Source: a virus. Taken from it: a stretch of 24,645 nucleotides of DNA. Both the position numbers and the translations under genes were made by a program. Location of the stretch: the IMG/VR virus record IMGVR_UViG_3300030380_003390, positions 1 to 24,645 of that record; one strand, 5' to 3'. This document shows positions 1-24,645 of this stretch, piece after piece (position 1 is the first letter of the stretch; each line of letters starts with the position of its first letter). The notes under the pieces are model-generated. The model was not told the origin of the DNA, made no database searches, and saw nothing but the letters and a program-made list of their open reading frames with translations.

Positions 1-351
1 AGTTATATTGATACGTTAAATAATTTATGGTTTAAACCAAAAGAATTTAATAATAAAGATATTGAATTACCTAACATCTTCGGCATGACTGCAAAAAATA
101 TTGCTGATATGTCGCAAGTATATGACATAAACAAGATAAATAATTATGACGGCAAAATGTTATTTAAGTACATGGATAATAAGTTCTATGTATGGAGTAA
201 GTATCGTAGCGGCGCGCATGAACATATACTCCGTAAAGATAATGTTAAAAGCATAGAGTCTATTCTTATGGGTTGTAGATGGACTGAAGACTTAGATTTT
301 GAACTACTTGACTGGTTGAAGCAGTCTTCATCTAAAGTCGGTGTTGTATAA
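1..351 (+). CDS. Hypothetical protein, C-terminal part (cut by window start)
   Basis: The frame is open from base 1 to the TAA at 349-351, giving at least 116 residues with no stop. The first ATG (85) has no Shine-Dalgarno sequence in front of it and 28 open codons before it, so the true start is probably left of the window. The visible part is soluble, mixed charged and aromatic, with a Tyr/Lys/Trp-rich middle and a C-terminal helix around residues 95-110. I do not recognise a family. Its stop shares a base with the next ATG (TAATG), which suggests coupled translation with the following gene. If the gene does start at ATG 85 it is an 88-residue protein. Confidence 0.6.
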   Translation, partial: SYIDTLNNLWFKPKEFNNKDIELPNIFGMTAKNIADMSQVYDINKINNYDGKMLFKYMDNKFYVWSKYRSGAHEHILRKDNVKSIESILMGCRWTEDLDFELLDWLKQSSSKVGVV

Positions 352-569
352 TGCAAGATCTAATAAAGCTACTTGAAGATAGACAGAACGATAGTGAAAA
401 ATATTGGCAAGAGCAATATCCTGAAGAGAAATCTATATCCAATGCACAGGAAACTGATAATGAATCATGGGAAATAGGATTCTATGCGGGACTGCAATTT
501 GCAATAGATACTATTAAAGAAATAAATATTGTAATACCAAACAAATATAGAAGGAGTAATAATGCCTAA
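351..569 (+). CDS. Small acidic hypothetical protein (72 aa)
   Basis: It starts at the ATG that overlaps the previous stop by one base. The protein is acidic and helical: a charged N-terminal helix (about residues 2-25), a polar Gln/Asn-rich linker, then a helix around residues 38-58 carrying a WEIGFYAGLQFA stretch of a kind common in small accessory phage proteins. No catalytic motif or membrane segment is visible. The last codons overlap the start of the next gene by 8 bases. Function unknown; position suggests an early, host-directed or accessory role. Confidence 0.65.
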   Translation: MQDLIKLLEDRQNDSEKYWQEQYPEEKSISNAQETDNESWEIGFYAGLQFAIDTIKEINIVIPNKYRRSNNA

Positions 570-726
570 TTTAATAGAGCGATTAACGATAGATATAATT
601 ACTGAGGATTGTGGAGGAACTTATTCTGCACTAGACCACATATATCAGTGGGTTGAAGAGCATGGTAATGGACAACACATAATTAGTAGTAGTTCAAAAA
701 AATTAAAGTTAGTGGAGGAAAAATAA
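562..726 (+). CDS. Small hypothetical protein (54 aa)
   Basis: ATG 562 is preceded by AAGGAG (551-556) at good spacing. The frame encodes MPNLIERLTIDII at the start and ends LVEEK, with a central Trp-containing helix and a Ser run near the C-terminus. It overlaps the gene before it by 8 bases and shares a base of its TAA with the ATG of the next gene. I do not recognise it. The strong ribosome binding site and the exact fit between its neighbours are the reasons for calling it. Confidence 0.6.
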   Translation: MPNLIERLTIDIITEDCGGTYSALDHIYQWVEEHGNGQHIISSSSKKLKLVEEK

Positions 727-971
727 TGCCTAATATAAAAACAAAAATTGAACTAGAGAAAAAGAATTTTCAACATTATATAGATGAAGGATTATTTAAT
801 TATGATAGTGAAAAAGACATGACTTTAGGATATGTAGACATGACTGCTGAAGAAGTGCTTAAAAAAATTAAACAGTGGGATTTTTCTCCATTAGATAATT
901 TAGTGTGGCACTACGCAAGAATAACTTTATTAAATGAATTACTAAATGAGGAGGAATCATGCCAGGTATAA
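726..971 (+). CDS. Hypothetical protein (81 aa)
   Basis: The start ATG overlaps the previous stop (TAATG), with GTGGAGG a few bases upstream. The protein is Lys/Glu-rich and probably helical, with a short aromatic patch (QWDFSPLDNLVWHY, about residues 50-63) followed by a helix rich in Leu and Glu. No family recognised. It ends inside the next gene, overlapping by 13 bases, and its own tail holds the GAGGAGG that serves the next start. Confidence 0.65.
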   Translation: MPNIKTKIELEKKNFQHYIDEGLFNYDSEKDMTLGYVDMTAEEVLKKIKQWDFSPLDNLVWHYARITLLNELLNEEESCQV

Positions 972-1090
972 ATAATGAATGTAGATTATGTGAAGAATAT
1001 TATCCATTAATAAGTATGACTAATGGTATATGTTCTATGTGCATGCAATTACATAGCAAATCAGAAGTAATAGGAATGTTGGAGGACTAA
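959..1090 (+). CDS. Mini zinc-binding protein, two CxxC pairs (43 aa)
   Basis: ATG 959 follows GAGGAGG at about 5 bases. The 43 residues contain CRLC (residues 8-11) and CSMC (25-28), a C-x2-C-x13-C-x2-C array spaced like a zinc ribbon or zinc knuckle. That spacing is seen directly; zinc binding is inferred from family knowledge. Such proteins in phages often bind nucleic acid or a host transcription or repair protein, but nothing here tells which. It overlaps the preceding gene by 13 bases and is coupled to the next by TAATG. Confidence 0.65.
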   Translation: MPGINNECRLCEEYYPLISMTNGICSMCMQLHSKSEVIGMLED

Positions 1091-1218
1091 TGCAAATATA
1101 TCAAGTAATAGTTATAGATGAAGAGAATACTCTTTATGAGTTGGATAGTCCATATTTGAACGAGAACTTTAAATACGATGCAGTAAACGATAACTTAAAA
1201 CAGATAGGAAGTGTGTAA
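1090..1218 (+). CDS. Small hypothetical protein (42 aa)
   Basis: It starts on the shared base of TAATG (1088-1092), preceded by TTGGAGGAC. The beginning MQIYQVIVIDEENTLYEL is beta-like; the rest is a short polar helix. The gene is exactly bounded by one-base overlaps on both sides. No homologue recognised. Called because of the ribosome binding site and the uninterrupted coupling pattern. Confidence 0.5.
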   Translation: MQIYQVIVIDEENTLYELDSPYLNENFKYDAVNDNLKQIGSV

Positions 1219-1391
1219 TGCCTGATATATATAAAGCATATAAAAAATTAGAGCATGAACATTACAAGTTAGAGCAAAGAATTTATTATCTTGAACAGGA
1301 AATTTCTGGATTAGATTTTGAAAATTCAGAAGCATTCGCCAGAGTAGACCAGAAGATGAACGAGGAGTTCGGAGATGAAGATGATGAGTAA
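1218..1391 (+). CDS. Small coiled-coil-like hypothetical protein (57 aa)
   Basis: It starts on TAATG (1216-1220) with GGAAGTG upstream. Residues about 5-32 look like one long amphipathic helix (KKLEHEHYKLEQRIYYLEQE) with hydrophobic residues at heptad-like spacing, so a coiled coil or dimer is likely. The C-terminus is strongly acidic (EEFGDEDDE). The family is unknown. It overlaps the next gene by up to 17 bases. Confidence 0.55.
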   Translation: MPDIYKAYKKLEHEHYKLEQRIYYLEQEISGLDFENSEAFARVDQKMNEEFGDEDDE

Positions 1392-1587
1392 ATACTATTG
1401 GATAATTAGAACTGATGATACCAATGGTTTACCATACGATACATTCATTAAGTGGTATAACTTACCAACATTAATTTATTGGTTAATTAAATATAGGATT
1501 GTAAATTATTGGTGTAGTTTTACCTGGATAGATATGGATACCAACATAGGAGAGAGCGACTTATTTATATTAAGAGGAAGGAGATAA
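1375..1587 (+). CDS. Aromatic-rich hypothetical protein (70 aa)
   Basis: Two starts are possible: ATG 1375, with GAGGAG at 1362-1367, or ATG 1381/1384, with GGAG at 1371-1374. The protein is unusually rich in Trp, Tyr and Ile, for example IKWYNLPTLIYWLIKYRIV in the middle, which could touch a membrane but is interrupted by charges. It ends in RGRR. I do not recognise it. It is coupled to the next gene by TAATG. Confidence 0.55.
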   Translation: MKMMSKYYWIIRTDDTNGLPYDTFIKWYNLPTLIYWLIKYRIVNYWCSFTWIDMDTNIGESDLFILRGRR

Positions 1588-1784
1588 TGTTAGAACCATT
1601 AACTGCAATAGGAAGTCTCTTCTGTTTTATTTTAGGATTCACCTTCGGATATGCAGTGGCGCAGCATAACCGGAGATTGTTTATTGAGGAAAAATTAAGA
1701 GCTTTACAGACAGAAAAAAAGTTTATAAAATCACACTTAGAAATAGTTGAAGATATAAACTATAACTTAAGGAAGGAAAAATGA
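1587..1784 (+). CDS. One-helix membrane protein with charged helical tail (65 aa)
   Basis: Starts on TAATG behind GAGGAAGGAGA, a strong ribosome binding site. Residues about 6-26 form a clear transmembrane segment (IGSLFCFILGFTFGYAVA), followed by a charged helix to the end (residues 29-65). This topology, short N-terminus plus one helix plus coiled tail, is shared by inner-membrane spanins and by many unrelated small phage membrane proteins. It lies far from the lysozyme, so a lysis role is only a possibility. Confidence 0.65.
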   Translation: MLEPLTAIGSLFCFILGFTFGYAVAQHNRRLFIEEKLRALQTEKKFIKSHLEIVEDINYNLRKEK

Positions 1785-1948
1785 TGAAGGAATTATTATT
1801 ACAATACATACATAGCATGACAGAACGCTTCATGCGATTCTTAATGGAGAATGATTATCCAATTCGATACGATAGTGATATTGTTTGCCAGGAAGGAACT
1901 ATTTTCGATGAGTGTTATTGCCCGATACACAACATGGAGACCGCATGA
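1781..1948 (+). CDS. Small hypothetical protein with Cys-rich C-terminus (55 aa)
   Basis: ATG 1781 overlaps the previous TGA (ATGA) and follows AAGGAAGG; ATG 1784 is an in-frame alternative. The first half is helical with several Met, the second half has Cys residues at about 36, 45 and 47 and a His at 50, which might bind a metal. That reading is weak because the spacing fits no standard motif. It overlaps the next gene by 4 bases. Confidence 0.5.
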   Translation: MMKELLLQYIHSMTERFMRFLMENDYPIRYDSDIVCQEGTIFDECYCPIHNMETA

Positions 1949-2253: not shown

Positions 2254-2389
2254 AGTATTTGAATCTATAACATACGTGCATACAGTAGAAGCTAACAGTG
2301 AAGAAGAAGCTATTACAAAAGTTAATGAATCTGATGACAACGGTAAGTTAGTTGATGGCAGTGAGTTCATTGTAGAGAAGGTAAGCTAA
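2240..2389 (+). CDS. DpnD/PcfM-like small protein (49 aa), GTG start
   Basis: The start is GTG 2240, 9 bases after a full AAGGAGG; the in-frame codon just before is a stop, so this start is well fixed. The sequence begins MITFKVFESITYVHTVEA and continues with NSEEEAITKVNES, the strand-strand-helix pattern (a beta pair, then an EEEA helix) typical of DpnD/PcfM-like small proteins of mobile elements. The assignment is by pattern only; the molecular role of that family is not established. It overlaps the upstream gene by 14 bases. Confidence 0.6.
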   Translation: MITFKVFESITYVHTVEANSEEEAITKVNESDDNGKLVDGSEFIVEKVS

Positions 2390-2634: not shown

Positions 2635-2638
2635 AAGG

Positions 2639-4122: not shown

Positions 4123-6039
4123 ATGTCAAACAAACAAAAAAACACACTTTGTACAGCGGGAGACTGCACCGTTCCATTACCAGAAGGTCGTAGAAAATAC
4201 TGTAGTAACAAGTGTTCAGAACGTACTAAGAAGAGAGCATATAGAGCTAGTAAATCTACGGAGGATTTTCAACAAATAAAAGAAGTAGATGAACAAGTAC
4301 AGAAGCGTAGAGGAGATTACTACGCCATTATGAAGAAAAAAAATTTTTTTGACGATATCTTAAATGGGGACAAGACGAAAAAACAGGTATCGGATATACT
4401 ATCCTGCAGTCCTGCAACAGTGAGTCGAGCTATGGCAGCGTATCTAGAAGATAAAGCAAAAGAAGCCGAATACGAAAAACGATCTACAGCAACAGTGGGG
4501 GAGATACAGGAAGCCGACGTAGACGACTTCGTAAAGTTTAGAGATGAGTATTTCTTAACAGAACAAAATAAAAAATATGAAACTCCAGAGTTCCAAAGGA
4601 AGTGGATTTCTGCTATCTTAGATACTATACAACATGGAAAAAGGTTGATGATCTTGTCTCCACCTAGACATGGTAAGACAGATTTGTTAACACACTTTTG
4701 CGTATACATGATTTGTAAAAATCCAAATATACGTATCATGTGGTGTGGTGGTAACGAAGATATTGCCAAAAACAGTGTTGGTGCAGTATTAGATCATTTG
4801 GAGAACAATGAAGGACTCATACAAGATTACGGAGATTGGGACGGATTTAGACCTGCTAATCGTTCAGGAAAAAGTTGGTCGTCCAGTCAATTTACTGTTG
4901 CAACTAGAACAGTCTCTGGTATTAAGTCGCCAACTCTTGTCGCAATTGGAAAAGGAGGTAAGATCCTTTCCAGAGACGCAGACCTTATTATTGCAGACGA
5001 CATCGAAGATCATGGAACAACTGTGCAACCAAGTGCTAGAGAAAACACAAGAAACTGGTGGACTACAACATTACAATCACGTAAAGAGGAACACACAGGA
5101 ATGGTCTGCATTGGATCAAGACAGCACCCCGACGATTTATACCATCACCTCTTAGATAACAGAGCATGGGAATCTATTATAGATAGAGCGCATGACTTAG
5201 AAGTACCACTAGAAGACGAAACTATTGATCATACTAAACACATGTTGTGGTCAGAAAAAAGAAGTCATAAATGGTTATTAGAACAATTGTCTGCAGCAGA
5301 GACAACAGGTGGTAGAAATATATTTGAAATGGTATATCTAAATAAAGCTATACCTGATGGCATGAGTTTATTTACAGCAGAAGCAGTAGATAGTTGTTTA
5401 GACAAATCTAGAAAACTAGGTGACATACCTCCACACACTACATTGATAGCAGGACTCGATCCGGCAAGTACCGGATACCAGGCAGCAGTGCTTTGGGCAT
5501 ACAATGTAAAAACACAACAAGTATGGTTGGTAGATATAAAAAATGATCAAGGTGGTGGTATTAAAAAAGCACATGACCTTATGAAGGAATGGTATGACAA
5601 GTATTTCTTATCACATTGGATCATAGAAGAAAACGGATTCCAACGTGCTATTGGACAAGATAGAGATATTAAATTTTGGGCAGCTAATCATGGTGTACGT
5701 ATAGAAGGACATCAGACATACAAAAATAAATGGGATCCTGTATTTGGTGTAACCAGTATGGTCGGTATGTATGAAAACCAAAAGATAAATTTAGCATGGG
5801 GGGACGCTGCAACAAAACGTAAAGTCAATATATTTAGACAACAGCTTTTATATTTTTCACAAGCAGGTGCTTCTAATTCACGTAATGTAAAAACAAAAAC
5901 TGACTTAGTTATGGCAAGTTGGTTCCCTATGAAACGTATACGTACTAATGTAAAAATGATGTTAGCGGAAGCAGAGAGCGACTATACTCCTAGTTATAGT
6001 TATTATAAAAATAGCGAATACAACGAGGTTTTTTGGTAA
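4123..6039 (+). CDS. terL: Terminase large subunit with fused N-terminal zinc/HTH region
   Basis: 638 residues; motor and nuclease that cuts the concatemer and pumps DNA through the portal. Walker A is SPPRHGKT (residues 179-186), Walker B LIIADDIE (288-295), the coupling motif GSRQHPDD (331-338). The C-terminal RNase H-type nuclease shows GLDPAS (Asp 446), IIEEN (Glu 502/503) and KTDLVMA (Asp 594). Before the ATPase lie about 110 extra residues: Cys 10, 15, 27 and 31 form a C-x4-C-x11-C-x3-C zinc-finger-like array, followed by a helix-turn-helix-like stretch (about 84-108, with QVSDILSCSPATVSRAM). These look like a DNA-recognition module of the kind usually held by the small subunit; no separate small-subunit gene is visible in this window. 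The start has a weak ribosome binding site behind a structured leader. It shares a base with the portal gene. Confidence 0.93.
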   Translation: MSNKQKNTLCTAGDCTVPLPEGRRKYCSNKCSERTKKRAYRASKSTEDFQQIKEVDEQVQKRRGDYYAIMKKKNFFDDILNGDKTKKQVSDILSCSPATVSRAMAAYLEDKAKEAEYEKRSTATVGEIQEADVDDFVKFRDEYFLTEQNKKYETPEFQRKWISAILDTIQHGKRLMILSPPRHGKTDLLTHFCVYMICKNPNIRIMWCGGNEDIAKNSVGAVLDHLENNEGLIQDYGDWDGFRPANRSGKSWSSSQFTVATRTVSGIKSPTLVAIGKGGKILSRDADLIIADDIEDHGTTVQPSARENTRNWWTTTLQSRKEEHTGMVCIGSRQHPDDLYHHLLDNRAWESIIDRAHDLEVPLEDETIDHTKHMLWSEKRSHKWLLEQLSAAETTGGRNIFEMVYLNKAIPDGMSLFTAEAVDSCLDKSRKLGDIPPHTTLIAGLDPASTGYQAAVLWAYNVKTQQVWLVDIKNDQGGGIKKAHDLMKEWYDKYFLSHWIIEENGFQRAIGQDRDIKFWAANHGVRIEGHQTYKNKWDPVFGVTSMVGMYENQKINLAWGDAATKRKVNIFRQQLLYFSQAGASNSRNVKTKTDLVMASWFPMKRIRTNVKMMLAEAESDYTPSYSYYKNSEYNEVFW

Positions 6040-7781
6040 TGGTGTATACCCCAGATGAATTATTAATAAAGACAGATGACCTTCGTGGTATGCACGAACA
6101 AAGTGGACACTACGAATATAGAGACAGAGTACGTTCTATTATGAACGGTGGTTCTAATGGTATATCTGCATTACTAGGTGATGGTGCAAAAAACTATGAC
6201 ACCGACCTACCAATACCAAATCTTATACATTCCGGTCTAGAACACCTTGCACAAAAATTAGGACGTATGCCAGACATAAAAGTGGACGCATACGCAGATA
6301 GTGATAGAGCAAAAAACAAAGCAGAAAAATTAGAACGAATTGTTACTAGCTTAGACGGTCATTCTAAGATGGATCAACAAATGCCACAGGCAGCTAGATG
6401 GTTACCTGGTTATGGTTTTTGTGTATGGATCATTAGACAAAAAATGGGACCTGATGGTGTTTTATATCCACACGCAGAACTACGTGATCCTTATGATTGT
6501 TTTCCAGGATATTATGGACCAGACCAAGATCCAAAAGAATTAGCATTAATACGTTTAGTACCTAATGCTGTTATCAAACAAATGTATCCACAAGCACAAG
6601 TTATGGTTGACGAGTCAAGTGGTTTTCCATCTGGTTATAGCAAATTTAAATATCAAGATCAATTTCAAAGAAGTTGGGATAACCATACTGCTGATGGTAC
6701 AGAACTCGTAGAGTTTTATGATGAGAACGGTACATACGTATTTTTACCAGAAACAAAACAAATACTAGATTACACACCTAATCCGTTAAGATCAGGACCA
6801 AGATTTGTAATATCTAAAAGATTTAGTTTTGATAGACTTACAGGTCAATATGACCATGTATTAGGTTTGATGGCAGCTATGGCAAAAATTAATGTTTTGT
6901 CAATAATTGCTATGGAAGACAGTGTATTTACTGAAACGAACATTATTGGTGAATTAGAGAGCGGGAACTACAAACGTGGTAGATTTGCAGTCAATTACTT
7001 AACACCTGGTTCACAAGTTGCTAAACCACCTAACAATGTTCCATATCAGTTATTTACACAAATAGACAGAATAGAACGTCAGTTAAGAGTTGGTTCTAGT
7101 TATCCAGTAAGTGATGACGCTATATCACCTAACAGTTTTGTGACTGGTAGAGGATTACAAGAACTATTATCTTCAGTTGACCTAAACGTAAAAGAATATC
7201 AGCTATCACTAAAAAGAGCTATGGAAGAGCTAGATTATAAACGTTTAGAGATGGACGAAGCACTTAACGGAAAAACTAAAAAACCATTAGCAGGATACAT
7301 AGATGGTACTGCTTATGCAGAACAATACACACCAAGCAACGACATACAAGGTATGTACAAGACAAGACGTATCTATGGTGTTATGGCAGGTTTTGATGAA
7401 CCTACAAAGATAGTATCTGGTTTACAATTATTACAAGCCGGTATTATCGATAAAGAAACTTTGCAAGAAAACATGGACGGACTAGACAATGTACAAAAGA
7501 TAAACGATAGAATCTTAAAAGACGAAGCAGAGCGTACATTGTTTGAGACATTAAAAATTCAAGCAAGTAATGGTGATCCAAAAGCTACGATGGCATTAGT
7601 ACAGATATATAAAAATCCAAATTCTATGCAATCAATATTAGATAAATTTTATACTGCAGAAGAACCAGAAGTTCCTGAAGCAGAAGCTGCCTTGTTAGGT
7701 CAAGAAGCACAATTACCAATACCACAAGGTCCTACTCCAGATATACGTTCATTATTATTAGGAGGTCCTCCAGGTGCCTAG
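6039..7781 (+). CDS. Portal protein
   Basis: 580 residues from ATG 6039, which overlaps the terminase stop (TAATG) and has GAGG at 6025-6028; a TTG at 6033 is a less likely start. The assignment rests on its place directly after the terminase, its size (usual portal range about 450-700), and its soluble alpha/beta make-up with a wing-like region around residues 60-180 and a long helical part around 370-420 before a charged C-terminus. The dodecameric ring sits at one capsid vertex and is the DNA conduit. The tail (about 550-580) is rich in Pro, Glu and Gly. I do not see a short diagnostic motif, so the call depends mainly on context. Confidence 0.78.
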   Translation: MVYTPDELLIKTDDLRGMHEQSGHYEYRDRVRSIMNGGSNGISALLGDGAKNYDTDLPIPNLIHSGLEHLAQKLGRMPDIKVDAYADSDRAKNKAEKLERIVTSLDGHSKMDQQMPQAARWLPGYGFCVWIIRQKMGPDGVLYPHAELRDPYDCFPGYYGPDQDPKELALIRLVPNAVIKQMYPQAQVMVDESSGFPSGYSKFKYQDQFQRSWDNHTADGTELVEFYDENGTYVFLPETKQILDYTPNPLRSGPRFVISKRFSFDRLTGQYDHVLGLMAAMAKINVLSIIAMEDSVFTETNIIGELESGNYKRGRFAVNYLTPGSQVAKPPNNVPYQLFTQIDRIERQLRVGSSYPVSDDAISPNSFVTGRGLQELLSSVDLNVKEYQLSLKRAMEELDYKRLEMDEALNGKTKKPLAGYIDGTAYAEQYTPSNDIQGMYKTRRIYGVMAGFDEPTKIVSGLQLLQAGIIDKETLQENMDGLDNVQKINDRILKDEAERTLFETLKIQASNGDPKATMALVQIYKNPNSMQSILDKFYTAEEPEVPEAEAALLGQEAQLPIPQGPTPDIRSLLLGGPPGA

Positions 7782-8471: not shown

Positions 8472-11400
8472 ATGGGCGTTTTTCATTACGACAATCCAAA
8501 GTCTGAACAAGACTTATACAAAGAGCTACGACAAAGAAAAACTCAATGGACAAGAGCGCAATCTGCTGTAAATAAAGAAGACGCTGCACGTGCTACAGCA
8601 ATATCACAGTTGTATCCTAATTTTTCACCAGATGTTATAACATCATTAACAATGTTGCAGGTCAAACCTGAATCAGAAGTATTGAATACATTATCTCAAA
8701 GAATAATAGAACATAATAAAAAAAGTCTTGTAGAAAAAATATCTGATCCATTAAAAGGTGCTGTAAGGTTTGGATTACTAGCATTAGAAGATTTATATAG
8801 AACAACAGTTGATAGACCTTTAAACTCTATGATTGCTGCAACAATAGGTGATAATGCAGAAAACTTATCATTTGCAGACGCATATAAACAATCTGGTAGT
8901 TCTACAGTTAAACAAGTATTTAAAAATTTAGCACAAGGTAAAGAAGTAAATTTAGGTGATGGATTATTACCACAGTCAGATGTATTTGATCCAAACAATC
9001 CTAATAGCAAAATGTACGATGAATATAAATATCTTATACAATCTGGTTTTGAAGAACAACGTGCGCAAAGCATAATACAAAATCAATTAGGTTCTGCTAT
9101 CACAGAGATAGATAGAAACATGCAAGAAGACAGTGGTTTGTTTAATATTTCTACAACATTAGGTACAGGAGAGACTGTACAGACACCTATCTCATTAGGT
9201 AGAACTGTTGCCTTAGGCGTTTCAGAACCTGGTACAACAGCTTTTAACACGATATCAGGCGTACTAGACGCAGGTAAAGCATTGTTCTTAGATCCTGCAA
9301 ACTACTTAACATTAGGTGCTGCAGCAGTATCAAAGAGTAGAAAAACACTTAGAGCTAGTGATGATCTTATTGCAATGCTAAAAGGTAAAAGTGTAGAAGA
9401 TGTAAAGAAGATGACTAAAGCAGAGCTAGCTGAAATAGGTATGGTAAACAGAGGTTGGGGATTATCTTTTATTACACCTAAGTCTGTAACAGATTATCTT
9501 AATAAAGATCCAGGTGGTATGAAACTTGTTAAGTATTTATCAAAAATAGAATCAGAATCTAAATTTATGGACATTACAGGTATAAAAGATCCTGGTGTTG
9601 TAAAAGAATTTATGAGAGTATCACAAGACTTTACAAAAACTGCAGACGAAAAAATATTAGATATGGCTAATTTGTTAGATAAATCTATAGGTTTTAAAGA
9701 TATGCCATTTGGAAATATAAGACCTACTGTAGGTGCAATAGGTAAAATATTAGGTGGTACAGCAGAAGCCATAACAGGTGCTAATGTCCCTGCAGGTACT
9801 GGTGCTTTGTTTGGCGCTAAAAAAGTATTTAAGTTAGCACTTATGGATAGCAATTCTAGATCTGCACGTATCATGGCAACCTATACAAAAGACTTACCAT
9901 TACGTTATTTAGATAGTGAAAACATGCAACAATCATTTGATCAAGTTAAAAAATGGTTAGACCAAACAGATCTTAATAGGAATACAAAAGATAAATTATT
10001 AAAAGAAACAATGAATCTAAAAAACAGAGATCAATCAGGTTTATTTAGAGTAGCTACATCTATGTTGGAAGAAACAGGTAAAGACTTAGTAGAAAACGGT
10101 GGAGTATCTGCACAAGACGCTAGAACATTTACGCGTATTTTTGAAGAAACAATTGACGATATGCGTAAATATTTTATAGATGGTTACACAGGTGATAACG
10201 TTAGACAACCAGGTATGAAGATGAAACCTATTGTACTAGAAGGTAAGATGGCTTCAGTACCTGACGCACACCTTACAACAGAATTTATTAATAGAACTAT
10301 ACCTATGCCAGACGCAGGACAACTTGCAAAAGCTATGAACAGTATGGCAATACTAAGAAATAAAATGGGCGGCACAAAAGCATTTGATGATTTCTTAGCT
10401 AAATATCCTAAGAAAATGCAAAAAGGTATTGCAGGAAGATCAGTTGATTGGTACTACACAGAGTTTTGGAAACCTGCTGTATTGTTACGTGGTGCATGGT
10501 TATTACGTGTTGTAGGTGAAGAACAGCTACGTATGTTTACTAGAGGTTACGACAACATATTTTCTAGACCATTATCAATAATATCTTTAGGTGTAGCAAA
10601 AGCTACAGGTGCAGGTAAAGAAGCTGCACAAGCAAAACGTTGGACACAAAAAGATGTAGAGTTTAAAGATTTGCTAGGTAATCCATTAGATGAAAGTTTA
10701 GAGTGGCAACAAGGTTCTTCACGTATGCGTGGCTCTAATAACAACGATGAGTTGTTTGGTGGTGCGCAACGTAATCAAAGAAGACAACAAGGTAGACGTA
10801 AAAAAGCAGGACCACATGATTATGACATATTAGATAAAGATGACGCTATACGTGGATTAACTACAGGCGACAAAGCTAGTGGTAATAAGTTTGTAAGAAG
10901 TTGGACTAATGAAACAGCAAAACTATATCAAGATGATCTGTTTACTTTATTATTTAAAAACAAATCTAATCCTAAAGCTAGACAAAATGCACTAAAAGAA
11001 TGGGTAGAAGGTAAGTCACAAAAAGCAAAAGCTGTTATAGAAGAGTATGCAAAAGGTGGTCAAAGATACGAAGATGTTATGTCTACAGCAGGTGGTAGAT
11101 ATGCTTATGCTAAATCTATAGAAGCAAGACTTCATCAAGCTGCAGGTGGTGCATTTGACGAAGACGTAACAATATTAGAAGATCTTATGAACAAGTTAGA
11201 GTTTGAAGATATAGATTTTAGTAAAAATCCATTTCCATTACGTATAGATAAACCACGTAATGAAGATCTATATAACCTACTTACAACAGGAAAACTAAAA
11301 CATATTGCAACAGAAGCAACTGATGGTGTATGGACTGACTCTGCTTTACTTACACCTGCACAAATAAAAAATGCAGCTAGTTCTGTAGAGCATGGCGGCA

Positions 11401-13997
11401 AGACTATGTATCTTATTAAAGAAGGTAATGGTTTAGATGGCATAGAAACACTAGAAGATTTGTACAAAATATTTGGTAAAGGTTTTACAAAACTAGATGA
11501 CAAGAGTATGCGTAAAGCAGCTAACACATACTATGACTCAATACTAAATAATTACATAGAGGATTTACCACAATTTGTTACTGCACCACTTGATGGCACA
11601 GTATTAGATGATACAAAATGGATAGAGAGATTTGTTAATAAAATGTTTGATGAGATCATGGGACAAAGAACAGATAATGCTTCTAGGTCACCTGTATTTA
11701 GACAAGCATATTGGCGTGCTATTTATGATTTATTGCCAAGAATGACTCCTGCAATGCGTACAGTATTGTTAGAAGGTAAGTCATACAGACAAGGTGGCAA
11801 GACTATAAAAGTAAGTGGTGCTAGAAAATCTAATATACCTGACGAAAACCTATTAGCAAGTATAAAAGCAGACATAGGTTTACCAAGTGTTAAGTTACGT
11901 AAAAGAGATACAGAAATTAATTTAGATTTATTTGAACGAAGAGTTGCAGAACTTAATGCTGCAGACGCAAAGCAAGGTACAAAGTATATAGACAACACAA
12001 AAGATATACAAAAGGCACAACAAGATGTTTCTATTTATAAAAGAAAACAACAAAAACTTATTGACGATATAGATGATCAAATAAACAAAGCTGATGACGA
12101 TATAGTTGATGATTTACTTGCACAAAAAGAATCTCTAATAGATGAGATGAATGATGGAATAAAAACACGTAATGCTGCAATAGATGAATTAGGTGTAGCT
12201 TCAGGTTTTGATAATAATTTTATAGACGCAGAGTATGTAGATAACTTTGCAAAAGCTATAGCACTAGAAGAACTACAAGGTTTGTTATACGATCTAAGTA
12301 AGCGTAGTAAGATTACTTACAATTTAAGAGGTATATTTCCATTTGGTGAAGCATACGTAGAAATATTATCTACATGGGCTAAGTTACTTAAAGAGAATCC
12401 AGAGATTGTAAGAAGAGGTCAAGTAACAGTTAATGCTGCACGTGACGAAAATCCATTTAGTCCTGTAGAAGGTGAAGGGTTTTTATCAGAAGATGAAGTT
12501 ACAGGAGAAGAAATATTTTATTATCCAATGGTAGATGATTTAGTATCAGACGCTATATTTGGTCAAGATAGAAATGTAGGAGTAAGATTACCAGGTTATG
12601 CAGGTTCTCTTAACATTGCATTAGAAGTTGTACCAGGTATTGGTCCTACAGCTGCTATACCTGCAGCATTCTTTTTAGAAGGTACTCCTAAATTTACAGA
12701 GACACAAAAGTTTTTATTTCCTTATGGTCTACCTACAGTTAAAACACCAGGCGATTTAATACAAGAAGCAGGTGTACCGTCATGGTTAAAGAACGGTGTA
12801 CGTGCTGCTTTTATGTTTAACGAAGACGCACCTCCAGGTGAGTTATCACGTATTGCAAGTAATACAACTATTGATGTATATAGAGTACTAAAAGCAAATG
12901 GTGAAGATGATATGACACCAGAAGCACAACAAAGATTACTAGAGAAATCTAGAAGCATTGGTAAAGGTTTGACTCTAATAAAAATGTTTTCACAGTTTGT
13001 AGGTCCTACAGGATTAAATCCTAGATTTGATATAGGCGATCCTAAGAATGCAGGTCAAGTATATTCTTTACAAATACTTGCAGATAGATACAGAGAACTT
13101 ATAGAGACACCACCTAAAGATCCAGTTACAGGTCAATTTTTATTTGCACCTGGTGATAACTATTCTGCTACAAAATATTTTATAGATGAGTTTGGTTTTA
13201 ATCCATTAGATATAGCTACACCTAAATCTGTAGTTGTAGAACCAAGACCAGTAGATGAACGTGGTGTACAGTTTGAAAAAGAAAATCCAGAGTTATTTGA
13301 AGATTATTCACTTACAGCATTTTATGCAGTTCCAAATGGTGGTGGTGGTCCATTTGATTATGAAGCATATACAAGAACTATATATAACGAGCAAAGAGAA
13401 CCACTTACACCAGAAGAATGGTTAGCAACACGTAACCAAAGATTAGGTGAGTTTTTTATGGAAGAAGAGAGAATTTCTACTTTAACACAATTTGATATTA
13501 CAGATCCATACCAAGCTAAACAAAGATCTAGATTGTTGTCACTTAAAAGAAATATAGCTGCACAAAAGTATCCAGGATTCGATACAACAATACCTGGTTT
13601 ACCACAACGTGGTACATTAGACGCACAGTTTGAAGAATTAAAAAGGTGGGAAGATAGTCCTAAATTACGTAAAACAGAAACAGGTAAAGCTGTTGCACAA
13701 GTGTTAGATTATATAGGAATACTAGAGAAGAAATCATTAGGTAGAGGTTTATCATCTAACGGTTGGCGTACATCACGTACAATGTTAGTTGAAAGACAAC
13801 AACTTAGAGATTTCATAGGACAAATATCAGTATCTAATGATGATTTTTATGTTATTGCACAAAATCTACTGTTACCATTATTCCAAGAGAGGACACAGTT
13901 CTTAGAGGATTTAGAGTACGATTATGATACAATGGTTGAATACGGTACATATTTACCTACAACAAACATTAGTAATGTGCAGCAGGGAGAAGCGTGA
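8472..13997 (+). CDS. Giant virion-associated protein, probable internal/ejection protein (1841 aa)
   Basis: One uninterrupted frame of 1841 residues, the largest gene here. It begins one base after the previous stop with little ribosome binding site, so coupling is likely. It is mostly helical and polar. Visible parts: a Gly/Ala-rich, weakly hydrophobic stretch about 250-290; a coiled coil about 1177-1241 rich in Lys, Asp and Gln; a conserved-looking FPFGEAYVEILSTWAKLL around 1289-1306; and another hydrophobic Gly/Pro/Ala stretch about 1373-1403. Aromatic FPFGE..W patches of this type recur in very large phage internal virion proteins. Size and place suggest a protein ejected with the genome; no polymerase, protease or lysozyme motif is visible. 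It lacks the repeated all-helical look of a tape measure. It ends in a GTGA overlap with the next gene. Confidence 0.6.
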   Translation: MGVFHYDNPKSEQDLYKELRQRKTQWTRAQSAVNKEDAARATAISQLYPNFSPDVITSLTMLQVKPESEVLNTLSQRIIEHNKKSLVEKISDPLKGAVRFGLLALEDLYRTTVDRPLNSMIAATIGDNAENLSFADAYKQSGSSTVKQVFKNLAQGKEVNLGDGLLPQSDVFDPNNPNSKMYDEYKYLIQSGFEEQRAQSIIQNQLGSAITEIDRNMQEDSGLFNISTTLGTGETVQTPISLGRTVALGVSEPGTTAFNTISGVLDAGKALFLDPANYLTLGAAAVSKSRKTLRASDDLIAMLKGKSVEDVKKMTKAELAEIGMVNRGWGLSFITPKSVTDYLNKDPGGMKLVKYLSKIESESKFMDITGIKDPGVVKEFMRVSQDFTKTADEKILDMANLLDKSIGFKDMPFGNIRPTVGAIGKILGGTAEAITGANVPAGTGALFGAKKVFKLALMDSNSRSARIMATYTKDLPLRYLDSENMQQSFDQVKKWLDQTDLNRNTKDKLLKETMNLKNRDQSGLFRVATSMLEETGKDLVENGGVSAQDARTFTRIFEETIDDMRKYFIDGYTGDNVRQPGMKMKPIVLEGKMASVPDAHLTTEFINRTIPMPDAGQLAKAMNSMAILRNKMGGTKAFDDFLAKYPKKMQKGIAGRSVDWYYTEFWKPAVLLRGAWLLRVVGEEQLRMFTRGYDNIFSRPLSIISLGVAKATGAGKEAAQAKRWTQKDVEFKDLLGNPLDESLEWQQGSSRMRGSNNNDELFGGAQRNQRRQQGRRKKAGPHDYDILDKDDAIRGLTTGDKASGNKFVRSWTNETAKLYQDDLFTLLFKNKSNPKARQNALKEWVEGKSQKAKAVIEEYAKGGQRYEDVMSTAGGRYAYAKSIEARLHQAAGGAFDEDVTILEDLMNKLEFEDIDFSKNPFPLRIDKPRNEDLYNLLTTGKLKHIATEATDGVWTDSALLTPAQIKNAASSVEHGGKTMYLIKEGNGLDGIETLEDLYKIFGKGFTKLDDKSMRKAANTYYDSILNNYIEDLPQFVTAPLDGTVLDDTKWIERFVNKMFDEIMGQRTDNASRSPVFRQAYWRAIYDLLPRMTPAMRTVLLEGKSYRQGGKTIKVSGARKSNIPDENLLASIKADIGLPSVKLRKRDTEINLDLFERRVAELNAADAKQGTKYIDNTKDIQKAQQDVSIYKRKQQKLIDDIDDQINKADDDIVDDLLAQKESLIDEMNDGIKTRNAAIDELGVASGFDNNFIDAEYVDNFAKAIALEELQGLLYDLSKRSKITYNLRGIFPFGEAYVEILSTWAKLLKENPEIVRRGQVTVNAARDENPFSPVEGEGFLSEDEVTGEEIFYYPMVDDLVSDAIFGQDRNVGVRLPGYAGSLNIALEVVPGIGPTAAIPAAFFLEGTPKFTETQKFLFPYGLPTVKTPGDLIQEAGVPSWLKNGVRAAFMFNEDAPPGELSRIASNTTIDVYRVLKANGEDDMTPEAQQRLLEKSRSIGKGLTLIKMFSQFVGPTGLNPRFDIGDPKNAGQVYSLQILADRYRELIETPPKDPVTGQFLFAPGDNYSATKYFIDEFGFNPLDIATPKSVVVEPRPVDERGVQFEKENPELFEDYSLTAFYAVPNGGGGPFDYEAYTRTIYNEQREPLTPEEWLATRNQRLGEFFMEEERISTLTQFDITDPYQAKQRSRLLSLKRNIAAQKYPGFDTTIPGLPQRGTLDAQFEELKRWEDSPKLRKTETGKAVAQVLDYIGILEKKSLGRGLSSNGWRTSRTMLVERQQLRDFIGQISVSNDDFYVIAQNLLLPLFQERTQFLEDLEYDYDTMVEYGTYLPTTNISNVQQGEA

Positions 13998-15694: not shown

Positions 15695-16448
15695 CGAACA
15701 AGATATGACAATATCTCCTGAAGGTATTGAATTTTTAAAAAATAAAGAAAAATTAGAATTAGAAGCATACGACGACGGTACAGGTGTGCAAACTATTGGT
15801 TATGGTCATACAGGTAGATCATCTGGTACTCCAGTAAAACCAGGCACAAAAATAACAATAGAACAAGCTGAACAATTATTACTAAATGATTTAAAAGAAC
15901 ACGAGTTAAGAGTAAGAAATCGTATGAATAATTATGGTATTACATTAGATCAAAGAGCTTATGATTACATGGTAATTGCAACATTTAATAGAGGTAGCGC
16001 TGTAGCAAATGAATCTTTTTACAAAGCAGCAGCTAATAAAGATTATGGAAAACTTGCTGTGCTTATGTTAGATAGTATTAGTGGATCAGACAAAAATGTA
16101 AAAGAAGGTTTAACAATAAGAATAAACGATGAAATAGAGTATTTACAAACAGAGCCACAACCTACAACAACTACTACATCTACTACAACTTCTACAATTC
16201 CTAGCACTACAACAACTACAACACCTAAGGTTGAAGATAACGAAACACCTTTAGAAGATGAACGTAGAAGAAAACAACGTGAAGCGTTAGCAAAAAAAAC
16301 ATTTATAGAAGATGACGTAGAAGAAGTATTTAAATCTTTCCAAACTATTGTTAAACAATTTTTTGGCATAATACCTGGTGGTCCTAAAGCAGAAGGTAAG
16401 TATGGATTACTAGGTGATCAAATATCTAAGATGGTAAAGAGGGACTAA
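15687..16448 (+). CDS. GH24-type lysozyme (muramidase) with Thr/Ser linker and C-terminal domain
   Basis: Hydrolyses the sugar backbone of peptidoglycan. From GTG 15687 (253 aa) the catalytic triad of T4-type lysozymes is complete: Glu 21, Asp 30 and Thr 36, spaced E-x8-D-x5-T, followed by IGYGHT (37-42); the helical part with ATFNRGSA matches the family's usual FN.G stretch. A 20-residue Thr/Ser linker (about 160-179) joins an unassigned charged C-terminal domain of about 70 residues. GTG 15687 overlaps the previous stop by 8 bases. An in-frame ATG 15636 with a better AAAAGGA site would add a 17-residue extension with a hydrophobic run (ILATCLLLSTLCPGWLVV). No holin gene adjoins, and it lies among virion genes, so it may be virion-borne, an endolysin, or both. 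Confidence 0.85.
   Translation: MVSEQDMTISPEGIEFLKNKEKLELEAYDDGTGVQTIGYGHTGRSSGTPVKPGTKITIEQAEQLLLNDLKEHELRVRNRMNNYGITLDQRAYDYMVIATFNRGSAVANESFYKAAANKDYGKLAVLMLDSISGSDKNVKEGLTIRINDEIEYLQTEPQPTTTTTSTTTSTIPSTTTTTTPKVEDNETPLEDERRRKQREALAKKTFIEDDVEEVFKSFQTIVKQFFGIIPGGPKAEGKYGLLGDQISKMVKRD
16164..16223 (+). repeat. ACA/ACT-rich microsatellite encoding the Thr/Ser linker
   Basis: Twenty codons, 15 of them Thr (ACA or ACT) with a few Ser, one Ile and one Pro. The run is in frame in the lysozyme gene and separates the catalytic domain from the C-terminal domain. Repeats of this kind can change length by slippage. Confidence 0.75.
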
Positions 16449-18331
16449 TGGCAAGAGATCCAAAAGACGATCCATATTATAATCCTGATTTTTCTCCTGA
16501 AGTAAATGAAGTTACAAATGATTTTACGTACAAAAAATTTGCAGATAAACAAGTTACTGGTGACGCAGTAATAATAAGAAAAAGAAATAACTTAGGTGAT
16601 TTTGATGTATTGCTTATTAAAAGAAAAAGAGGACCACATCAAGGTGGATTTGCATTACCAGGTGGTATATACGAAGAAGGTATGGATACACTAGAAGATT
16701 TTATTGGTAGAGAAGCATTAGAAGAAGTTGGTTTACAAGAGTCAGATATTGTAAATAGTTTTGACTTAGAACCTAAATTAGACAGATTTGATTGGGACGC
16801 AAGAGCAGGTAAAGGTGTAGATGTTTATGGCAAAGTATTTATAGTAGATGGTGACTTTGTACCTATAGCAGCAGATGACGCTTTGTCAGCACAGTTTATA
16901 AATATAGATGATATTGTAAGTGGCAAAGTAGATCTTGCATTTGGTCACGCAGAATGGATATTTGATAGCTATGGTCGTGGTAAAGCAGCAGAATTTACTG
17001 TAGGTAAAGGTCGTGACGATCACATGAAACTTGCAGAAATTGTTAAAGAAAACAAAAAACGTAACCAAGATTTTATATTAGAAGTAAACGAAAAAAGAAA
17101 ATTTGATAATTTTAATATTATTGATTTAACACTAGACAGTGAGTTTGATATGTCAGCACCAGATGATGTTGGTGAATTATTTAAAGCTGATCCAGAAGTA
17201 AATCAGTCAGGCGCTATGGACGCATTGTCTAATGCACTTCCAGATAATTTAGATGAAACAGATTTATCTGATGAAGATAAACGTATGATAGAAAAATACA
17301 GAGAAGATAAAGCAGACTTTGAGAAATTAGTAACAGAAGGTCAAGCAGAAATAACAGATGATGACATTGCAGATTTAGGACTTGAAGAAAATGATTTATC
17401 TGACGGTGACGCAATGACAGAAAAATTTTTAGATGAAGGTGATAGTTTAGATTTAACAGATGAAGAGAGAGCAGCATTACTAGATGATATTGAACAAATA
17501 GACAAAGCTAATGATCCTAGAAGGTTAGGCGGATTAGATCCTAATGCAGAAATACCTGATTCACCAAAAGATCTAGGTGACGAAGATTTACTTGATCTAG
17601 CAAGAGAATTAGGAATAGTAGAAGAAGGACCTATGGATATATCAGGATTGTCTGATGACGCAAAAGGTTTAATAGGTGATCTTGCTGATGATGAAACAAA
17701 AGCACAGTTTTATGATTTAAATGATATAGAAAATTTTGCTAATGGTAATCAAAGAATTTCAGCAGAACAAGCTAAAGAACTACAAGATATGACTGGAATG
17801 TTTCTAGATAAAACAGATGAAGTAGTAAATAAATTACCAATAGAAAAAGTTGTTAAAACTAGATTAAAGAAAAAATTAGCAGAAATGACAGTAAAATGGA
17901 CAACATTTTCTGGTGCAGGTGAGTTGTTAGATATATATGAAACAGGTGTTTTATTGTTTTACGGACTTGTTGCAGCAAAACCAGAGCTAGAAAAACTTGC
18001 TACAAACTATATGATTGATATGTACAACACAATGGCAGAGCCATACGGTGCAAAAATTAACAGAGAAGAATATACACCTGATTGGAATTATATAAACGAG
18101 CAGTTAGAAAACGCAGAGAAGATTACACCTACAGATATAATTATTAAAAAAACAGGAGAAGTTATAGAAGGTGCTGCTGAAACTGGTATGGTTACAGGTT
18201 TTGGCTATGTACCAACAACTAAGGATAAATTGAACAAAACATTGGTTCAACCAAAACCAGTAGAAGAGAAGGTTGAGGATCCAATGTATGATAGAATAAG
18301 AAGAACATTTAGTGGAAAGTTTACAAAGTAA
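16448..18331 (+). CDS. Nudix-domain protein fused to a long acidic virion-type protein (627 aa)
   Basis: Starts on TAATG after GAGGGA. Residues about 35-180 form a Nudix hydrolase domain: strands with VLLIKRKRGPHQGGFALPGG (54-73), then the Nudix box ending in REALEEVGL (88-96). Between GG and RE lie 14 residues, one more than in the common box, and Met 79 stands where Glu is usual; the same 14-residue spacing occurs in CoA-pyrophosphatase-type members. The metal-binding EALEE helix is intact, so activity on a nucleoside-diphosphate-type substrate is plausible, but the substrate is unknown. The remaining about 430 residues have a very acidic middle (about 200-420, many Asp/Glu) and a helical C-terminus. 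Such proteins are normally small free enzymes; here it stands in the structural block. Confidence 0.75.
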   Translation: MARDPKDDPYYNPDFSPEVNEVTNDFTYKKFADKQVTGDAVIIRKRNNLGDFDVLLIKRKRGPHQGGFALPGGIYEEGMDTLEDFIGREALEEVGLQESDIVNSFDLEPKLDRFDWDARAGKGVDVYGKVFIVDGDFVPIAADDALSAQFINIDDIVSGKVDLAFGHAEWIFDSYGRGKAAEFTVGKGRDDHMKLAEIVKENKKRNQDFILEVNEKRKFDNFNIIDLTLDSEFDMSAPDDVGELFKADPEVNQSGAMDALSNALPDNLDETDLSDEDKRMIEKYREDKADFEKLVTEGQAEITDDDIADLGLEENDLSDGDAMTEKFLDEGDSLDLTDEERAALLDDIEQIDKANDPRRLGGLDPNAEIPDSPKDLGDEDLLDLARELGIVEEGPMDISGLSDDAKGLIGDLADDETKAQFYDLNDIENFANGNQRISAEQAKELQDMTGMFLDKTDEVVNKLPIEKVVKTRLKKKLAEMTVKWTTFSGAGELLDIYETGVLLFYGLVAAKPELEKLATNYMIDMYNTMAEPYGAKINREEYTPDWNYINEQLENAEKITPTDIIIKKTGEVIEGAAETGMVTGFGYVPTTKDKLNKTLVQPKPVEEKVEDPMYDRIRRTFSGKFTK

Positions 18332-21715: not shown

Positions 21716-22762
21716 ATGGGTGCAATATCAGGTGCAAATCCGATAGTCGCTAGTGATATCAATAACTTCACTGGTGAATTATTTAAAATAACACCACATA
21801 GAACTCCTCTCCTTGCAGCAGCAGGTGGTTTGAACGGCGGAAATGCTATTAATAGCACATTCTTCCAGTTTCAAACACAAGACAATGCAGTTGTTACTTC
21901 CGTTACTCCTGATGACGAAGGTGGTTCACCTAACTATTCAGGTAGAAACAGAAGCGCACAACAGGGCGTTCTTCAGATTTTCCACGAAGCAGCACAAGTA
22001 TCTTATACAGCACAAGCTGCGTCTGGTGAAATCGTACCTTTCCAATTATCTGGAAACTACAAGAACTCCGATCCTGCATTATCTTTAGAGGGTAATAACG
22101 CAATCTCTGATGAGTTAGCTTATCAGATGGAATTAGTACTGGAAACAGTAGCTAAGAAGGTTGAGTTCCAAGCATTTAATGGAACATACAACGACGGAAC
22201 ATCAGGTGATCGTCAAATGAGAGGTCTTAAAGCACATCAAGATCTATCAGGCGGTAACTCTGTAAATAACGACGACGGTGCAGGTTCTCCTGCCGCACAA
22301 AAAATCAACTGGGACATCATTGCTTCTGCAATGAAAACTCTTTATGACGCAGGTGCGCCAATGAGACAACCAGTTCTTTTCGTTAGCCCAACAATGTTGT
22401 TGGATCTAAACAAAGAATTAGTTAAAGCAACAGTCGGATCTGTTAATTACGGAATCCTACCAAGAGACAGAAATGTCGGAGGTGTTGACATTGATACAAT
22501 CGTTACACCATTCGGTTCATTAGGTCTCGCATTATCTGACTACTTGCCTGCAGGAACCATTGCCGGTTCTAAGCAAGCATTTATCGTTGACCTTAGCTTT
22601 GTCAAACCAGTATTCCTTAACATTCCAGGTTTCGGAACTATGTTTGTTAGAGACTTAGATCAAAACGATCAAGCAAGAATTGCAAAAGCAGTATATATGG
22701 AAATGGCGTTCGATTTCGGACCTCAACAATATCACTGTGCAATTGACAACGTAGTTGGTTAA
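21716..22762 (+). CDS. Major capsid protein
   Basis: 348 residues; the shell subunit of the head, probably with the HK97 fold. N-terminal part: NPIVASDINNFTGELF and then RTPLL followed by Gly/Asn-rich and beta-rich sequence, a layout I associate with SU10-like capsid proteins (that family link is from memory, not a search). A central helix about 135-157 (ELAYQMELVLETVAKKVEFQ) would suit a spine helix. It follows the scaffold gene, has AAGGGA at good spacing, and is followed by two hairpins. Codon use differs from its neighbours: about 12 of 18 Phe codons are TTC, against almost all TTT in the giant gene, as expected for a very highly made protein. Confidence 0.85.
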   Translation: MGAISGANPIVASDINNFTGELFKITPHRTPLLAAAGGLNGGNAINSTFFQFQTQDNAVVTSVTPDDEGGSPNYSGRNRSAQQGVLQIFHEAAQVSYTAQAASGEIVPFQLSGNYKNSDPALSLEGNNAISDELAYQMELVLETVAKKVEFQAFNGTYNDGTSGDRQMRGLKAHQDLSGGNSVNNDDGAGSPAAQKINWDIIASAMKTLYDAGAPMRQPVLFVSPTMLLDLNKELVKATVGSVNYGILPRDRNVGGVDIDTIVTPFGSLGLALSDYLPAGTIAGSKQAFIVDLSFVKPVFLNIPGFGTMFVRDLDQNDQARIAKAVYMEMAFDFGPQQYHCAIDNVVG

Positions 22763-22770
22763 TCCAACTA
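22752..22770 (+). other. Hairpin over the capsid stop codon
   Basis: TAGTTGG (22752-22758) and CCAACTA (22764-22770) make a perfect seven-pair stem; the TAA stop sits in the five-base loop. No T run follows. Probably a 3' message-stabilising element or one half of a tandem with the next hairpin. Confidence 0.5.
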
Positions 22771-22780
22771 ATTAGATTAT

Positions 22781-22815
22781 TCCAAGACCGCTATATAAAC
22801 GTAGCGGTCTTTGGA
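22781..22815 (+). terminator. Strong hairpin after the capsid gene, without T run
   Basis: TCCAAGACCGCTA (22781-22793) pairs with TAGCGGTCTTTGGA (22802-22815) through 13 pairs with one bulged base and an 8-base loop. The stem is the strongest in the window, but only TTT inside the right arm stands in for a T tract, so termination would be partial at most. It likely sets the ratio between capsid and downstream messages or blocks 3' decay. Confidence 0.55.
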
Positions 22816-22836
22816 GTATGTTAAAATAAGGACACA

Positions 22837-23178
22837 ATGTACGGAAGAACAAAAAGCGAAGTAGCTTTAATTGATATATCAGAAGACGCAAGCAACAGTA
22901 TCGCAGTTAATTGTGATAACATGTTACTTTGCGGTATAGTATTCCCGTCCGCTATGACAGGTACAGCTGTTACATTTGACTATTCAGTCGATGGAACAAA
23001 CTTTGTAGATGTTAAAGAAACAGACGGTACCGAAGTATCCTACACAGTAAGTGCAGGCGACGCAATAAGAATCGATCCTAGTGGTTGGGCTTTTGCAGGC
23101 GGAGGTTTTTTAAGAATCACATCTGGATCAACAGAAGCTGCTGACAGAAAAATTAAATTATTATTTAGAACTGCTTAA
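22837..23178 (+). CDS. Small beta-rich virion protein (113 aa)
   Basis: ATG 22837 follows AAGGA. The sequence is a run of beta strands with Gly/Thr/Ser turns: GIVFPSAMTGTAVTFDYSVDG (about 33-53, quoted here only in part by its pattern), then a DGT..V strand, a DPSGWAF segment (80-86) and a closing LLFRTA. The pattern of GIV.P...T....F..S.DGT.F followed by an RI.SG segment recurs in small phage head decoration or neck-associated proteins. It follows the capsid gene, which supports a head-surface or connector role; which one is not settled. Confidence 0.6.
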   Translation: MYGRTKSEVALIDISEDASNSIAVNCDNMLLCGIVFPSAMTGTAVTFDYSVDGTNFVDVKETDGTEVSYTVSAGDAIRIDPSGWAFAGGGFLRITSGSTEAADRKIKLLFRTA

Positions 23179-23186
23179 GGAGTACC

Positions 23187-24128
23187 ATGTCAACGTTTGG
23201 TCAACTTATAGACAGAACTTATAGAGAATACCTTAGACCTGTAGAGGAACAAGAACCTCTTACACAGGTTTCTAATACAGATAGTATTACAGGTGGCACA
23301 GGTCTTACGGCTTCTGCTACTTCTATTACATATCAAGCAGGTTTATTAACACCGGAAGAAGAAGAATTAATTGGTGCAGGTTCTGTTATAGAGATAGGTC
23401 AAGAACTTATCATGGTTGAAAACATTAACACTGTTGCCAGAACACTTACAGTAGAACGTGGTAGATTAGGTTCTACAGCTGCTGAACATGCGACTGGTAC
23501 AGATATAATTATTAAACCTAAATATCCTAGAATTAACGTAGCTAATGCTATTGGAGATCAAGTTATAGGATTATTTCCTGCACTTTATGCAGTAAAGAAA
23601 ACAACATTAACAACTTCATCTACACAATTTGTAGAAATGCCTGCAGGTACACAAAGAATATTACAAGCAAAAATAGATAACTCTACTGCGGGTTCTACTA
23701 CAACTGTATATAGTGACGTAGCACTAGAACTACTTACAGATTTCACACCATCATCAACAGAATGTGCTGTACAGTTTCCATCAGCACCTACATCAGGTAA
23801 AAGTGTATTTGTTGTATTTGCTTCTAAATTTACAAGACCAACAACAGAAGCAACAGATCTAAACACTACATCAGGTCTAGAAGATTTTCATGAACAAATT
23901 GTTATGGTTGGTGCTATAGCACAGTTACTATCAGAACTAGATGTTGATGTTACAACACAAGACTTTATAACAGAAAACTTAGAACAAAGAGGTATACCTG
24001 TAGGTTCTGGTGAAAGATTGCGTAATGCTTTATTAAGATATTACGGAGTGTTATTAGACAGAGCGAGAAGAGAACAGAGATCAAGATTCCCACAAGGTGT
24101 AGAACTTTACGGAATTAGTTTTACCTAA
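23187..24128 (+). CDS. Putative head-tail adaptor/neck protein (313 aa)
   Basis: ATG 23187 is five bases after AAGGAG. The N-terminal helix FGQLIDRTYREYL (4-16) is followed by a beta domain (about 40-110) with EIGQELIMVENI and RGRLGSTAAEHATGT, a Gly-rich strand pattern common in phage neck or tail adaptor proteins. A second helical part at about 232-310 is Arg-rich near the end. Position after the capsid and decoration genes and before a tail-type gene supports an adaptor. It shares TAATG with the next gene. Confidence 0.55.
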   Translation: MSTFGQLIDRTYREYLRPVEEQEPLTQVSNTDSITGGTGLTASATSITYQAGLLTPEEEELIGAGSVIEIGQELIMVENINTVARTLTVERGRLGSTAAEHATGTDIIIKPKYPRINVANAIGDQVIGLFPALYAVKKTTLTTSSTQFVEMPAGTQRILQAKIDNSTAGSTTTVYSDVALELLTDFTPSSTECAVQFPSAPTSGKSVFVVFASKFTRPTTEATDLNTTSGLEDFHEQIVMVGAIAQLLSELDVDVTTQDFITENLEQRGIPVGSGERLRNALLRYYGVLLDRARREQRSRFPQGVELYGISFT

Positions 24129-24645
24129 TGCCTATACCAAATACATCAAATGTCGACAGGGCATTAGCATGGGGATACCAGGCACAAATATCAGACGGTA
24201 CTACAGACTTACTACTTAGACTTGCTGTAGCACCAGGTAGAGAACTTAGTGTTACAACTGCACCATTAGCTGCGCAACAAATTAACACAGCACAAACACC
24301 AGAAGAATTTAGAGCAGAGTTTGGTCAAACTTATGCAAGATCAGATTTTACTGGCGGTGCAGGATTAGACCAGGCACATGGTAGAAATGCAGCACCTAAT
24401 GATTTTAGAAGATTTTTCGATAGCAAAGGTGTAGATGTATTTAAGAATGCAGGAGAAAAAGGTGACGCATATAGTTTATGTTTACATAAAGAAACAGAAG
24501 CTGTAGCTGCACATGCAAGTACAGAAACATTTCAAAGCATGGTAGAAGTTGACGATACAATTATTTTAGCAAGAGACGAACAGATATATAAAACAACAGA
24601 TAATTTTGCAACTGTCACAACACACAATCAACTTGTAGGTCCTAC
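24128..24645 (+). CDS. Tail/adsorption-type protein, N-terminal part (cut by window end)
   Basis: Begins on TAATG with little ribosome binding site and stays open for 172 codons to the last base, so it is 3' incomplete. Residues about 65-100 contain EFGQTYARSDFTGGAGLDQA and a RRFFDSKGVDV segment, a pattern I associate with phage tail or receptor-contact proteins that continue into a beta-propeller. The last part (IILARDEQIYKTTDNF, near 140-158) looks like the first blade of such a propeller. The function is inferred; the decisive C-terminal region lies outside the window. Confidence 0.55.
   Translation, partial: MPIPNTSNVDRALAWGYQAQISDGTTDLLLRLAVAPGRELSVTTAPLAAQQINTAQTPEEFRAEFGQTYARSDFTGGAGLDQAHGRNAAPNDFRRFFDSKGVDVFKNAGEKGDAYSLCLHKETEAVAAHASTETFQSMVEVDDTIILARDEQIYKTTDNFATVTTHNQLVGP

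Follow-up and report, generated by a model that had tools for sequence, protein, structure and literature searches.

Elimination of GATGC/GCATC from an uncultured phage genome along with some nine further short words, and switching of such words among its relatives

Avoidance of restriction sites by phages is already known, usually from phages whose hosts have been identified and which lack a palindrome or two. In a survey of viral genomes, elimination was detected in about a tenth of them and concerned almost exclusively orthodox Type II sites (Rusinov et al., 2018; PMC6286503). By the statistic used here, coliphage T7 (CCWGG and GATC; its words are CCAGG and GATC-derived ones) and Roseophage SIO1 (CCWGG and CCGG) show the same type of loss as the phage described below. 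The word most strongly avoided by that phage, GATGC/GCATC, is the target of SfaNI-like Type IIS restriction-modification (R-M) systems, which include SfaNI of Enterococcus and R.Cal02329 of Caldicellulosiruptor and carry two methyltransferases (PMC9799307); the phage shows only what looks like the footprint of such a system, no gene for an enzyme of this kind having been found here. As in the dsDNA phages of the survey, the loss of Type II words is nearly complete, affects both orientations and is compensated by synonymous codons. Unlike in those cases (PMC6286503), several asymmetric words and palindromes are missing at once and the set of missing words switches between phages at 71–95% terminase identity. 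The genome therefore exemplifies a familiar phenomenon in a strong and uncommonly rich form, its interest lying in the breadth of the losses and in their switching between lineages.

The stretch of DNA that was analysed (the window) is a complete IMG/VR virus record of 24,645 bases (positions 1–24645) with 35% G+C, from an uncultured, probably marine phage. Nearly all of its genes lie on the plus strand, as do all of those named here, and they run from small early ORFs through the genes for terminase, portal, an 1841-aa protein, lysozyme and a NUDIX protein to the capsid gene. The terminase large subunit (4123–6039; phrog_38, 8e-69) served for collecting relatives and for constructing a tree. 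The portal protein (6033–7781) was recognized by a match to phrog_104 (1e-4) together with the gene order. The 1841-aa protein (8472–13997), whose gene is free of GATGC, was left without an assigned function, having no match in Pfam, in PHROGs or in the comparison with isolate phages. Downstream are a phage lysozyme (15681–16448; PF00959, 3.5e-18), a protein with an N-terminal NUDIX domain (16448–18331; PF00293, 1.9e-8) and the major capsid protein (21716–22762; phrog_1328, 3e-38), which is 32% identical to that of Mycobacterium phage Bernal13.

A direct count found a single GATGC (1177–1181) and no GCATC in the entire window, where base composition predicts about 15 and 12 copies, respectively; both the counts and the 10–15 copies per strand expected in a preliminary description of this sequence were thus correct. 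The lone site forms an Asp-Ala pair (GAT-GCA) in a 42-codon ORF (1090–1215) of the early block, where the preliminary description had placed it. Near relatives lack a close homologue of this ORF, the only match being a weak one of 40% in L041 and L042, and no relative could be aligned by blastn at the site itself. When synonymous codons were permuted so that neither the proteins nor the set of codons changed, 32.6 copies in both orientations were expected in the coding sequence and none was seen (z −9.2; the ORF set of this test did not include the site-bearing ORF), which is the most extreme depletion among the 512 five-mer pairs. A stricter null model (300 shuffles), which also fixes the dinucleotides at codon junctions and was applied with ORF 1090–1215 counted, gave 29.8 expected copies against one seen (z −8.1), the lowest count in any shuffle being 20. 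The observed count thus lies far below what the proteins and their codons would allow, as it should in restriction-site avoidance, and codon choice does enforce the absence, as had been proposed.

The elimination is equal in both orientations (GATGC 1/19, GCATC 0/11 under the strict null; such pairs of word counts, here and below, are observed/expected numbers, not fractions) and is specific to the word. Expectation is reached or exceeded by 14 of the 15 one-mismatch neighbours of GATGC and missed only by GAGGC, which is itself an eliminated word, and the usual substitute GACGC is used twice as often as expected (29 versus 14, strict null). Asp before Ala is encoded as GAC-GCN in all 28 pairs of the ORFs counted, and elsewhere in the window GAT outnumbers GAC 383 to 133. 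The exclusive use of GAC, described previously, therefore stands, but for 28 or 29 pairs rather than 30. The reported avoidance of GCA-TCN in Ala-Ser pairs was borne out as well: Ala before TCN is encoded by GCT (seven times) or GCG (once) and never by GCA, elsewhere its commonest codon (349 of 554).

The preliminary description suggested a codon-shuffled comparison and its repetition on related phages, and the depletion proved to be clade-wide. Eighty relatives were gathered via terminase. The wider clade of the window (61 contigs including the window and L082, 709 kb) has 13 GATGC/GCATC sites and the sister clade (21 contigs, 250 kb, 71–73% terminase identity) has 636. The sister clade, which has a similar GC content, carries the word at expectation and encodes its Asp-Ala pairs as GAT-GCN 272 times and as GAC-GCN 32 times. 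An artefact of library preparation or assembly was rejected, as the contigs come from many different IMG samples and yet are concordant inside each clade and discordant from one clade to the other. On the terminase tree, gain or loss of GATGC amounts to one change on one branch, and its avoidance is constant in all 61 relatives, so that, taken alone, it represents a single evolutionary switch. The avoidance is thus specific to a lineage, as restriction-site avoidance would be, exposure itself not being observable here.

The loss is maintained by current selection and not merely inherited, because control words turned over while GATGC never did. Over 20,085 bases aligned between the window and its close relative G008 (88.8% identity), GATGC was gained or lost 0 times and each of twelve control words 8–44 times. 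At 22 aligned places where the sister-clade genome G009 has GATGC, the window most often has GACGC (six places).

Most of the remaining sites lie in DNA that is accessory or looks foreign. Nine of the 13 sites in the clade are in accessory or foreign-looking regions and the other four in regions common to clade mates (L013, L037, L044 and L049). L016 has four GATGC sites in a region without a counterpart, two of them inside an antirestriction gene of the ArdC family. Both sites of L082 are held by a small early ORF (L082:172–294) with 96% DNA identity to L071, a sister-clade contig that does not avoid GATGC, and this ORF appears from its sequence to have been transferred recently between the clades. 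The sites of L039 and L040 are likewise shared with L071. This pattern fits foreign DNA awaiting purging. There are 0 or 1 sites in 59 of the 61 clade contigs. Some Type IIS enzymes require two sites (PMC4081073), and a single site might be tolerated for this reason, the sites being too few to separate such tolerance from recent acquisition.

GATGC is one of about ten words eliminated from the window on both strands and in coding and non-coding DNA. There are no copies of GGATG, GCTGG, GGAGC, GGGTC, GAGGC, AGGCT, GGCTG and GGCC, nor of the 6-mers AAGCTT, CATATG, ATGCAT, GAATTC and GTGCAC, the list thus including the HindIII and NdeI targets, and CTGAG occurs once. The absence of many unrelated five-mers, which the preliminary description named as an observation that would speak against selection on GATGC, was therefore found in part (seven words at zero, CTGAG at one), but these are discrete words that switch between lineages and there is no general loss. 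The weaker words are individually modest in the window under the strict null (z about −3) and draw their force from the larger relatives and from the switching. In the 40-kb genome of G008 the counts are 0/59 for GATGC, 0/43 for GCTGG, 0/33 for AGGCT, 0/31 for CTGAG, 0/29 for GGAGC, 0/28 for GAGGC, 0/25 for GGATG, 0/21 for GGGTC and 2/71 for GAAAG.

Other relatives avoid other words. GANTC is missing from G004 (0/69) and normal in the window (49/47); CCGG is missing from G011 (0/20) and retained in the window; GTSAC is lost in G009 (0/26), GGTGA in G019 (0/37), CCWGG (0/28) and TTTAAA (0/20) in G017, and CASTG and CCTTC in some relatives, while GGCC is absent from some (0/17) and normal in others. 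Some words were regained: GCTGG in L036–L045, GGATG in L026–L034, GGAGC in L046 and GGGTC in L059 and L068. The terminase tree requires mostly one to three changes per word and five for CGATG. A degenerate target GAKGC (GATGC plus GAGGC), offered by deconvolution, was rejected, as GAGGC switches independently of GATGC: it is present in the GATGC-less L008–L010 (3/4, 5/7 and 4/6) and nearly absent from L061 and L071, which keep GATGC. The avoided word is therefore exactly GATGC/GCATC, as would be expected for a SfaNI-like target. By the strict statistic, 3–9 five-mer pairs are eliminated in this phage group and 0–5 in seven reference phages, a small set that is not GC-matched. In G017 (L116), L059 and L068, GACG (0/28), CCWGG and TTTAAA are gone and GGGTC, CCGG and GGCC, missing in others, are kept, which gives a nearly complementary barcode. 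Strong site loss is also seen in the SAR11 phage HTVC010P of Pelagibacter (L164), with CTAAG 0/42, CTCAG 0/23, GTCAC 0/18 and CAGTC 1/23.

We consider it very probable that these words were purged by several Type II-like R-M systems of the host, one of them SfaNI-like. The agent is called restriction mainly because many of the words switched in the relatives are what we take to be well-known Type II targets. We know of no enzyme for GCTGG, GGAGC, GGGTC, GGCTG and AGGCT. As the search yielded no host and no enzyme specific for GATGC, the enzyme's SfaNI-like and probably Type IIS character is read from the word itself, and the host, too, we can only infer. Selection against a non-palindromic five-base target, as originally proposed, is strongly supported, but the accompanying account in terms of SfaNI alone is too narrow, because some nine further targets have been eliminated besides GATGC. 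The phage lineage would multiply in hosts with several such systems, one of which would cut unmethylated GATGC/GCATC. Phage DNA would arrive unmethylated, so that genomes bearing the word would be lost more often; copies would be removed over many generations, mostly by synonymous changes (GAT-GCN to GAC-GCN, GCA-TCN to GCT-TCN), and newly arising ones purged. The same process would have acted on GGATG, GCTGG, GGAGC, GGGTC, GAGGC, AGGCT, GGCTG, GGCC and some 6-bp palindromes, and the barcode borne by each phage lineage would thus reflect its recent encounters with restriction systems. Ten simultaneous eliminations would need a host rich in restriction systems or a succession of hosts.

Other host defences with short asymmetric sites, such as Type III R-M, Type ISP or BREX, could be responsible in place of Type IIS enzymes, and non-palindromic 5-bp words do dominate the list, as they do with systems of Type III and its kin. 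For cleavage by a Type III enzyme, two sites in head-to-head arrangement are usually required, and the loss of one orientation can suffice for evasion. Here, both orientations are gone for GATGC, and the same holds for GCTGG, CTGAG and AGGCT (for several other words the expectation in one orientation is too small), and palindromes typical of Type II systems are dropped by relatives in like manner. In the viral survey, Type III sites were avoided only very rarely (PMC6286503), and we regard this explanation as unlikely. Self-protection from a nuclease encoded by the phage or by a mobile element competing for the same host would account for a loss of GATGC that is constant throughout the clade, yet it would take about ten specificities that differ from one close relative to the next; no matching nuclease repertoire was seen among the genes examined and the eliminated words include standard R-M targets, making this explanation highly improbable. 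Least credible of all is a mutation bias, a preference for certain codon pairs or dinucleotides, or some other effect of composition, which the AT-richness of these phages, the rarity of many G+C-rich words and the only moderate significance of some other words in the window alone under the strict null could suggest, but which, like chance, is already refuted for GATGC by two codon-preserving nulls, the stricter one fixing codons and junction dinucleotides, by normal neighbouring words, by the sister clade with its similar GC content and by losses that are discrete and switching.

If host restriction is indeed the agent, this phage group, sampled from metagenomes, allows the speed of selection by restriction to be measured in nature: it shows about ten complete losses per genome, differences between relatives, purging that can be followed at individual sites and foreign genes in which the avoided word persists. 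Phage DNA alone could then predict restriction specificities and candidate hosts. We would, with some reserve, go on to regard the set of avoided words as a heritable barcode of some ten restriction specificities, asymmetric ones included, which turns over at the level of phage species and might report the arsenal of a coastal host rich in restriction systems. Should this be true, the genome of an uncultured phage would help to find its host and new restriction enzymes.

Neither the host nor a GATGC-specific enzyme could be traced through near relatives in genomes or through isolate phages. Isolate phages gave matches of only 26–32%, to terminases and capsids of actinobacteriophages. In bacterial assemblies the only near relative was one contig in a 38.5%-GC metagenome-assembled genome (MAG) labelled Rhodobacteraceae. 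This single contig gives no convincing host: the content of the MAG looks mixed with viral contigs, and 396 other members of the family carry no close relative. No D12-type methyltransferase was found in this MAG, and the contigs that encode its methyltransferases look viral, the neighbouring genes resembling those of phages or primases. In MAG G024, labelled Rhodobacteraceae, contigs C78 and C72 (L149 and L148) carry tandem cytosine-5 methyltransferases adjoining a primase-like protein and are probably viral contigs binned into the MAG.

No DNA methyltransferase of the families PF01555, PF00145 or PF02086 is encoded in 29 phage records, and methylation by the phages themselves was accordingly rejected as the reason for the sister clade's tolerance of GATGC. 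Genes of the ArdA family, which inhibits Type I enzymes, were detected in 11 of the 29 records, nine of them over the curated cut-off (including L102:1087–1659), whereas the window, G001 and G008 gave none. The antirestriction gene of L016, the only clade member with four sites, is ArdC-like (L016:4880–5761, minus strand; ArdcN plus MPTase-PolyVal). A division of labour may be envisaged in which inhibitors would counter Type I enzymes and site loss Type II enzymes. The closest relative, G008, also encodes a SET-domain protein (L095:5082–5384, minus strand).
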